Positions 42,047 through 43,633 of a stretch of 64,000 nt of DNA are shown here, one piece after another. Position numbers and translations under genes: made by a program. Numbering within the stretch: position 1 is the first letter of the stretch; each line of letters begins with the position of its first letter. The stretch spans positions 1-64,000 of the forward strand of contig JAJRUM010000076.1 of the NCBI GenBank assembly GCA_024277815.1. The letters run 5' to 3'. Source of the stretch: Gammaproteobacteria bacterium (GTDB taxonomy: Bacteria > Pseudomonadota > Gammaproteobacteria > Xanthomonadales > SZUA-36). A model generated the notes under the pieces. The model was not told where the DNA came from. It did not search any database and saw only the letters and a list, made by a program, of their open reading frames with translations.

Positions 42047-42826
42047 TCAGGTTTGATAGCTTGCAGCAACGTTGAAAGATATTGGACCTTCAACGCGGCC
42101 GTTCATGAACTGATCGACAGCAGGCTCGTCACAGTGCATCAATACTTGTGGGCTGCCCTCGGCTATCAGCTTTGCACCGGCAAGAATGAAACAATAGTCG
42201 ACCAGTTTATTCATCTGATCCACATTATGGGTAACAATCACGCTGGTTAGTCCCAGTTCATCATTGGTCACCCTTATCAACCGGCTGATGGTGGACATGG
42301 CGATTGGATCCAGTCCCGTCATGGGCTCGTCGAAGAGTACGATCCTGGGGTTCATAATGACGGCCCGTGCGAGCGCAACCCGCCGTGCCATGCCTCCGGA
42401 TAAGCTGTATGGCATCAGTTTGGCGGTATCAGCCAGGCCAACGGATTTCAGCTTATCCATCACCCGGTCGTGTATTTCCTCTTCGCTGAGATCTGTGTGT
42501 TCACGCAGTGGTGTGGCGACGTTCTCGAACACCGTCAGGTCGGTAAACAGGGCCCCATCCTGAAGTAATACGCCAATTTCTTTCCTGCATGTATACAGGT
42601 CACGTCTTGAGAGGCTGGAGATCAGCTTGCCATTGACCTCTACAGAGCCCTTATTCGGGTGTAACTGACCTGAAATTAAACGCAGAATGGTCGTTTTTCC
42701 AACCCCGCTGGGGCCCATAATGGCCACGATGCTGCCGCGCTTGATGTCCATGCTGACATCATTGAGGATGACTTTGCTGCCACGCCTGTAGACCAGGTTG
42801 CTGAGTCGGATGATCGGATCTTTCAA
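42047..42826 (-). CDS. mlaF: phospholipid ABC transporter ATPase MlaF
   Basis: A 259-residue ATPase: Walker A GPSGVGKTT, signature YSLSGGMARRVALARA, Walker B IVLFDEPMTGLDP, H-loop VIVTHNVDQM. The first codon is TTG with a GGGGGG stretch 6 bp upstream; no ATG or GTG gives a better family start. It is the first gene of mlaFEDC-mlaA. A candidate promoter (TTGAAA-N17-TACTCT) lies in the 85 bp between it and the upstream RNA gene's terminator. Confidence 0.95.
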   Translation of the reverse strand: MKDPIIRLSNLVYRRGSKVILNDVSMDIKRGSIVAIMGPSGVGKTTILRLISGQLHPNKGSVEVNGKLISSLSRRDLYTCRKEIGVLLQDGALFTDLTVFENVATPLREHTDLSEEEIHDRVMDKLKSVGLADTAKLMPYSLSGGMARRVALARAVIMNPRIVLFDEPMTGLDPIAMSTISRLIRVTNDELGLTSVIVTHNVDQMNKLVDYCFILAGAKLIAEGSPQVLMHCDEPAVDQFMNGRVEGPISFNVAASYQT

Positions 42827-42910: not shown

Positions 42911-42943
42911 AAAAAAAACGAGGGAGACTTGCGTCTCCCTCGT
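42911..42943 (-). terminator. intrinsic terminator of the structured RNA
   Basis: An 11-bp perfect stem (42918-42928 with 42933-42943), a GCAA loop on the minus strand and a run of eight T on that strand (complement of 42911-42918). It lies 85 bp upstream of mlaF and separates the RNA from the mla operon. Confidence 0.92.
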
Positions 42944-43251
42944 CGTAGAAGTGTAGGAACTCCGCTTCTGGTGGACTGCAGATCCTCCTAGGCCTTTCCA
43001 ACTTCGTCCAGTTCCGATCTGTTCCGCCCTTCGGTTTCTGGTCGCGAGTCTTCTACCCGCTTTTATTTATCGACGTGTTTCGCGTCTATCTCAAGGAATC
43101 GCGTTTTCCTATCGAGTCACCCTTATGGTACGACCGCTTCTTTTGGCAGAACCCGGTCCGGGTGACGCGTCCTGTACCACCTGGACGCTGTCCGTTTTCT
43201 TCCACCCTCTCCACCTTCAGGCGGGTCGGCCCTCTGGTAGATCCACATTCC

Positions 43252-43335
43252 GATCGTTTCCGGTCTTTCGACCCTCTCCGTCCGTCTCCAGCCTTGCGGC
43301 TTTCTCCGTCCGTTTCCGGCCTCTCGGCCTTCTCC
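43252..43335 (-). repeat. three tandem 28-nt units with covarying GNRA hairpins
   Basis: Three contiguous units of exactly 28 nt (43308-43335, 43280-43307, 43252-43279), each beginning GGAGA. Their hairpins are GGCC-GAGA-GGCC, AGCC-GCAA-GGCT and GGTC-GAAA-GACC: the stems change on both sides together and the loops vary only within GNRA. The linkers (GGAAACGGAC, GGAGACGGAC) keep GGA motifs. This pattern points to selection on RNA structure. Confidence 0.85.
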
Positions 43336-43390
43336 GTTCTTCCTGCGATCCCAACCTTTCGGTTGGTGGGTTTCTTGTAACGGGGGATCT

Positions 43391-43419
43391 AAGTTACTCC
43401 TGGGCAGAGTAATTGTCAA
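43391..43419 (-). promoter_or_regulatory. sigma-70 promoter of the structured RNA
   Basis: TTGACA (43414-43419), a spacer of exactly 17 bp, and TAACTT (43391-43396), read on the minus strand. Expected transcription start near 43384. Upstream, inverted repeats GTCAT-N5-ATGAC (43431-43445) and CATGAG-N14-CTCATG (about 43462-43487) are possible regulator sites. The canonical GacA box is not visible. Confidence 0.7.
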
Positions 43420-43633
43420 AGACCAAATACTGTCATTTAGGATGACTTTCTCAACGTGTGCATGAGTTAAAAATTACAACCTCATGAATAAAAAAACATC
43501 TTAATTTTTCCCCGTTTTATTGTTTGCGATAAAGCGAATAAAATTGATTAAAAATGACACGAAAAATATCTGGAAATAAAAAAACCCGGAGTAAAAACTC
43601 CGGGTTTGATTTTTAGATATCTCTAAAATGGAT
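43420..43633 (-). terminator. AT-rich spacer with a terminator (43582-43607) behind the puuD-like gene
   Basis: The spacer between the RNA promoter and the puuD-like gene is AT-rich and has no gene. An 11-bp stem AAACCCGGAGT/ACTCCGGGTTT with an AAAA loop is followed by a T-rich tract on both strands. It most likely ends the puuD-like transcript coming from the right. Confidence 0.8.

Follow-up and report, generated by a model that had tools for sequence, protein, structure and literature searches.

What is the stretch of several hundred nucleotides that lies just upstream of the mla operon in this gammaproteobacterial DNA, with signals for its own transcription and no evident protein product? 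The earlier note offered two answers, a lineage-specific sponge for the regulator CsrA or a new class of structured RNA. The second of these is now strongly supported, in that homologues are found across a whole bacterial family, their core helices covary, two pseudoknots are present and Rfam holds no match; for the locus as a whole, the best explanation, and one that we regard as fairly probable, is a large noncoding RNA of a new class, stand-alone and highly structured, that acts in trans. By "new class" is meant an RNA family without a detectable relative, the genre of large structured RNAs being itself already known. Throughout, "the window" denotes the whole stretch of DNA analysed, 64,000 nucleotides in length.

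The gene and its upstream DNA

The elements of the gene and its immediate surroundings are as follows:

43523..43539, minus strand: upstream box 1, ATTCGCTTYRTCGCAAA, preceding the -35 element by about 104-120 bp; putative activator site
43477..43490, minus strand: upstream box 2, consensus TTCANNNACTTG, preceding the -35 element by 58-69 bp
43391..43419, minus strand: promoter, TTGACA (43419-43414), 17-nt spacer, TAACTT (43396-43391), read from the sequence
42911..43385, minus strand: RNA gene, about 475 nt (43385-42911), with a 5' end predicted from promoter spacing at about 43384-43385 and a 3' end at the T run
42911..42944, minus strand: intrinsic terminator, perfect 11-bp stem, GCAA loop, T7-8
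42047..42826, minus strand: mlaF, the gene that opens the mla operon; a downstream neighbour, outside the RNA

Most of what the earlier note had described here holds good: the TTGACA-N17-TAACTT promoter is present, the perfect 11-bp terminator lies on the same strand with its run of T7-8 (42944-42911), GNRA-capped stems do occur, and credible coding is indeed absent, as none of the six frames stays open across the 29 homologues, all six being broken by stops and frame shifts. A protein-coding gene is thereby ruled out, since every frame carries stops in some of these members. In the same 29 members the TTGACA of the -35 element is nearly invariant and the -10 element, as TANNTT, is near invariant, while the terminator varies in sequence among relatives but retains its pairing. 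The RNA strand folds with an energy of -170.4 kcal/mol, against -146.3 +/- 5.0 kcal/mol for shuffled sequences (z = -4.8). On this comparative evidence the independent RNA gene is real, and we infer that it is transcribed.

The feature drawn in the earlier note was right as to the RNA gene but too small in extent, for conserved regulatory DNA continues to about 43539. Box 1 is kept in nearly all of the 29 members, its distance from TTGACA being fixed in most of them, and has a single match in the window when up to 3 mismatches are allowed; in the divergent copy of genome G018 a version of it adjoins the -35 element. Box 2 shows a position-specific information content of 1.2-2.0 bits over the 29 members, and for the most part it likewise keeps its spacing from the -35 element. 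Box 1 is a probable activator-binding site. Further upstream (window 43582-43607) lies an inverted repeat with a perfect match over 11 bp, flanked by T runs on one side and by A runs on the opposite side; it is the terminator of the upstream gene, which encodes a PuuD-like membrane protein of 223 aa.

Distribution, core fold and hairpin arrays

Among 41 relatives, a blastn search picked up the RNA in 21, and with a covariance model for the 3' core block it was detected in 29 of the 39 genomes of one uncultured gammaproteobacterial family. A 30th, very divergent copy, in G018, scores 48 and 24 bits with the two covariance models (filters off) and has the two core blocks adjacent and in order, which brings the family total to 30 of 39; homologues, which the earlier note had suggested collecting from upstream of mlaF, thus exist in most of the family, and lie there wherever the flank could be read. 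A DNA pattern that recognises the homologues already retrieved gave 30 contigs among 84,980 species genomes, many of them, by contig name and length, from the genomes that blastn and the covariance model had picked out; these pattern-matched hosts are all metagenome-assembled genomes, labelled as Lysobacterales, Xanthomonadales, Oceanospirillales or Chromatiales, or simply as Proteobacteria/Gammaproteobacteria. Indeed, every known host of the RNA is a metagenome-assembled genome, mostly of aquatic bacteria.

Outside the family, no credible homologue was found in more than 700 sampled genomes. A covariance-model search of 369 genomes of the class matched only the window's own genome. When 398 genomes of the order were searched, there were two marginal matches, in G334 and G369 (E about 9e-4 for that set), neither of them credible: by eye, the genes they fall in were identified as an H1-like gene and thrS, and both matches were rejected as chance. 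Pattern and similarity searches of viral contigs, plasmids and phages returned nothing, nor did the mlaF-upstream regions of ten genomes of other families contain a homologue with filters off. The RNA thus appears confined to one uncultured family, a restriction that would explain its absence from Rfam.

Two matters concerning individual genomes may be recorded here. The G018 copy (L133:1412-1770) keeps the promoter, P5, PK1, P8 and GAGATAGACG and has a degenerate 3' block, so that it may be a decaying or a re-specialised version; and two pairs of contigs (C14 and C31 of G005, C152 and C261 of G004) end or start in or near the RNA, which could reflect either one locus broken at repeats or two copies.

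The 29 members have in common a core some 330 nt long; it comprises 17 helices, including two pseudoknots (PK1 and PK2), and its blocks are nearly constant in length. Its parts, with the two sites at which arrays of hairpins are inserted, are listed below in 5' to 3' order of the RNA:

43192..43383, minus strand: P1-P4 domain, in which P1 encloses P2, P3 and P4
43383-43379 with 43196-43192, minus strand: P1, CCGUU/AACGG, nearly invariant
43371-43368 with 43207-43204, minus strand: P2, ACCC/GGGU, covarying (7 both-side cells)
43253..43367, minus strand: array site 1, the variable 5' hairpin array, built of 28-nt units that contain purine linkers and hairpins capped by GNRA tetraloops
43239-43236 with 43215-43212, minus strand: P3, covarying (25 both-side cells)
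43231-43229 with 43222-43220, minus strand: P4, nearly invariant
43167..43188, minus strand: P5 hairpin, GCGUCC/GGACGC, with the PK1 5' strand UGGUAC (43179-43174) in its loop
43116..43166, minus strand: P6, GUCACCC/GGGUGAC, enclosing P7 (GACCG/CGGUC) and the PK1 3' strand GUACCA (43131-43126)
43021..43152, minus strand: PK2, a long-range pseudoknot of GUUCUGCC (43152-43145, P7 loop) with GGCGGAAC (43028-43021, P11/P12 loop)
43072..43116, minus strand: P8/P8a hairpin, invariant GAGAUAGACG and P9 (GACG/CGUC), from the core alignment
43082-43076, minus strand: array site 2, at the P9 tip, up to about 560 nt in relatives
42956..43071, minus strand: 3' core, comprising the GAUAAA linker, P10, P11, P12, P13 (loop UCUGCAG) and P14

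Over the whole core, 94.1% of 2364 cells are paired, compared with 34.9-43.3% after one side has been shifted against the other by 1-3 columns, and 32 pairs show changes on both sides in the core alignment of 29 distinct members. Covariation, which the earlier note had named as a check, is also found when changes are counted along a tree: 131 of them preserve pairing, 53 being double, these counts coming from the author's own script, with simple parsimony and a tree built from the same RNA alignment. Among individual helices the clearest case is P5, where all 6 pairs show both-side changes and 16 double changes fall on the tree; P6, P10, P11 and P13 also covary, and 97-99% of cells are paired in the P6/P7 region. 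Most of the same local helices were predicted by RNAalifold when applied to the two core blocks.

Both pseudoknots cross other helices. For PK1, in which the P5 loop pairs with GUACCA, 99% of cells are paired, and it has no independent support from covariation because it is nearly invariant. In the case of PK2, where the P11/P12-loop strand that pairs with GUUCUGCC can also be written GGCAGAAC, 93% of cells are paired, 2 of the 8 pairs show both-side changes in 12 cells (for example UA16/CG11), UUC/GAA swaps with CUC/GAG between clades, and none of 500 shuffles did as well. A further thirty columns outside the helices are invariant, including parts of GAGAUAGACG and of GAUAAA, which on sequence grounds would be typical of a binding or active core.

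Variation in length is concentrated at the two array sites. The segment from the 5' end to the 5' core block ranges from 28 to 435 nt among members and the P9 tip from 7 to 559 nt, giving total lengths of 362-902 nt. One clade, to which the window belongs, carries the 5' array (with a tandem repeat at 43275-43337 in the window), and the other carries the P9 array; two members, L014 and L015, have neither and measure only 362-363 nt. The arrays contain 164 four-bp hairpins closed by tetraloops where 29.5 would be expected, with 65 distinct stems and a preference for GNRA (62) and UUCG (22) loops, implying that the hairpins are maintained while their stem sequences change.

What the RNA may be

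Rfam searches gave no match to a known family, a result consistent with the reading as a new class. Over the window there was no match at the locus at gathering score, only a distant tRNA being detected, and at the locus itself no family scored beyond chance level with E allowed up to 5. Two families seen in that search, sraA and STnc290 (E of 2.7 and 4.8), match only the terminator hairpin and are at chance level. Six divergent members likewise gave no Rfam match; in particular, neither the CsrB/RsmX-Z models nor those for OLE, GOLLD, ROOL, raiA and HEARO matched in the window, at the locus or in these six members. As far as sequence comparison goes, the identity as a new class is well founded.

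Under the preferred reading, a stand-alone RNA of a new class, the sigma-70-type promoter and terminator would yield a separate transcript whose output would be set transcriptionally through the conserved boxes lying 85-155 bp upstream of the start. The core would form a compact fold that binds one or several proteins as a ribonucleoprotein and the RNA would act in trans, while the arrays, on the evidence of their anatomy alone, would be surface extensions in which hairpins and purine linkers add docking or binding sites. The RNA is thus probably the scaffold of a ribonucleoprotein, with arrays that serve for docking and can expand, and it would be controlled through the conserved activator-like site upstream; judging by its conservation, it probably does an important job. 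A more ambitious version, which we put forward only tentatively and consider less likely than not to be right in full, sees in the compact core of this ornate RNA a machine that is catalytic or oligomeric or that organises proteins; each lineage would attach its expandable set of docking hairpins to the core at one or the other array site, with valency tuned by tandem duplication.

Of the other explanations, the one that survives best, unlikely as we consider it, is that the RNA is a sponge whose GGA-bearing purine linkers titrate CsrA/RsmA as CsrB/RsmZ do, the number of array units setting its capacity. CsrA is encoded in the host (G000) and in 31 of the 39 family genomes, and a search of the host genome with the CsrB model found nothing, so that a sponge would make sense; there is an activator-like box upstream, and Xanthomonas provides a precedent, as at least one RsmA-binding RNA there, RsmU, lies outside the known families (PMC7694677). 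The earlier note counted 26 GGA motifs, correctly, and relatives have up to 45, but its chance expectation of 8-10 was too low: mononucleotide shuffles give 15.8 and dinucleotide shuffles 20.8 +/- 2.8, so that z is only 1.9, and in L011, L058 and L059 it is negative (-0.4 to -1.7, dinucleotide shuffles). It also placed many of the GGA motifs outside hairpin loops, and hairpins with GGA in the loop do indeed show no excess, numbering 2 against 2.9 in shuffles for the window RNA and being no commoner than in shuffles when averaged over ten members. This bears on the matter because the high-affinity sites preferred by the related protein RsmE are ANGGA hexaloops, though single-stranded GGA linkers can also bind (PMC4005645); since they can do so, more weakly, array-bearing members may still bind CsrA. 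The minimal members L014 and L015 lack an array, however, the 330-nt core with its two pseudoknots is left unexplained, and CsrA is also encoded in G012, G016 and G053, in which the RNA was not found, so that presence and absence do not discriminate. The lineage-specific sponge of the earlier note therefore keeps its CsrA but not its GGA excess, which is below 2 sd, and is weakly supported at best; CsrA binding, if it occurs, would be an added property rather than the reason for the conserved core.

Somewhat less likely again is a cis-acting leader or riboswitch of the mla operon, in which the terminator would be conditional and readthrough would control mlaFED. A cis role is possible because the position is constant: in every homologous locus with a readable flank mlaF lies directly downstream on the same strand, while the neighbours upstream of the RNA differ. 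However, the terminator is strong and perfect, and 25 of 29 members have between it and mlaF a -10-like site with the sequence TACAAT (TACAGT in a single instance), so that mla most likely has a promoter of its own; an aptamer would require nothing like so large a core; the RNA of G018 is several hundred nt distant from mlaF; and both genus g8 and genome G045 have mlaF without the RNA there. From genus g8, where the RNA was not found at the mlaF locus, it follows that the RNA is not essential to the whole family. In G045 (L136) the mlaF -10 site TACTACAATTGG is present with no RNA upstream, whereas sister genomes have the RNA; as this genome is incomplete, the absence could be a loss or an assembly error.

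The possibility of a ribozyme, or of a homo-oligomeric RNA particle like those of OLE, ROOL and GOLLD with the palindrome CUGCAG of the P13 loop as a kissing loop, we regard as slightly more doubtful still. Its size, its ornate fold and the thirty invariant unpaired columns are all in keeping with such a role, the palindromic loop is retained in nearly all members, and the known ornate RNAs do form complexes through kissing loops (PMC12286853). On the other hand the segment around the palindrome is conserved in any case, L057 (GCGUAACAG) has lost the palindrome, and no cleavage or ligation motif was recognised. Catalysis or homo-oligomerisation by the core is a possible activity as far as the sequence goes, and oligomerisation through the P13 loop is best treated as a lead only. 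Finally, size and single copy might suggest one of the universal RNAs (6S, RNase P or tmRNA) in divergent form, but this can be dismissed: each of the three is clearly present at another place in the host genome, above cut-off, by which these identities are refuted.

Comparison with known systems

The RNA resembles CsrB/CsrC and RsmX/Y/Z in being encoded by an independent gene that has a promoter and a terminator to itself and a distant activator-like site upstream, and in its repeated hairpins and numerous GGA motifs; it differs from them in that its GGA motifs lie outside loops, are not clearly enriched and are not conserved, and in having a rigid conserved core with pseudoknots. The upstream box of the CsrB/RsmX-Z genes has the consensus TGTAAG-N6-CTTACA, from which that of the window RNA also differs. 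RsmU of Xanthomonas (PMC7694677) is comparable in standing outside the known RsmA-binding RNA families, in a possibly related order, but is small, derives from a processed mRNA 3' end and has four GGA motifs, and the searches made revealed no homology between the two. The raiA motif/ModT RNA is similar in being large and structured, in acting in trans and in forming a separate transcript (the last two being presumed in the present case), but it gives no Rfam match here and belongs to unrelated hosts.

Few bacterial RNAs are as large, conserved and complex as this one (OLE, GOLLD, ROOL, raiA and some others), and most of the known large ones have proved unusual in structure or function. Like OLE, GOLLD and ROOL (PMC12286853), the present RNA is large, stand-alone and noncoding, with many helices, pseudoknots and highly conserved unpaired nucleotides, and with a function that for such RNAs is unknown or only partly known. 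Unlike them, it shows no match to their sequences or covariance models, occurs in other hosts and is not found beside tRNA islands or phage genes; its core is shorter, and its length varies through hairpin arrays at two alternative sites. This last is an unusual architectural principle, in which a rigid core is combined with tandem hairpin arrays that grow at one or the other of two peripheral positions.
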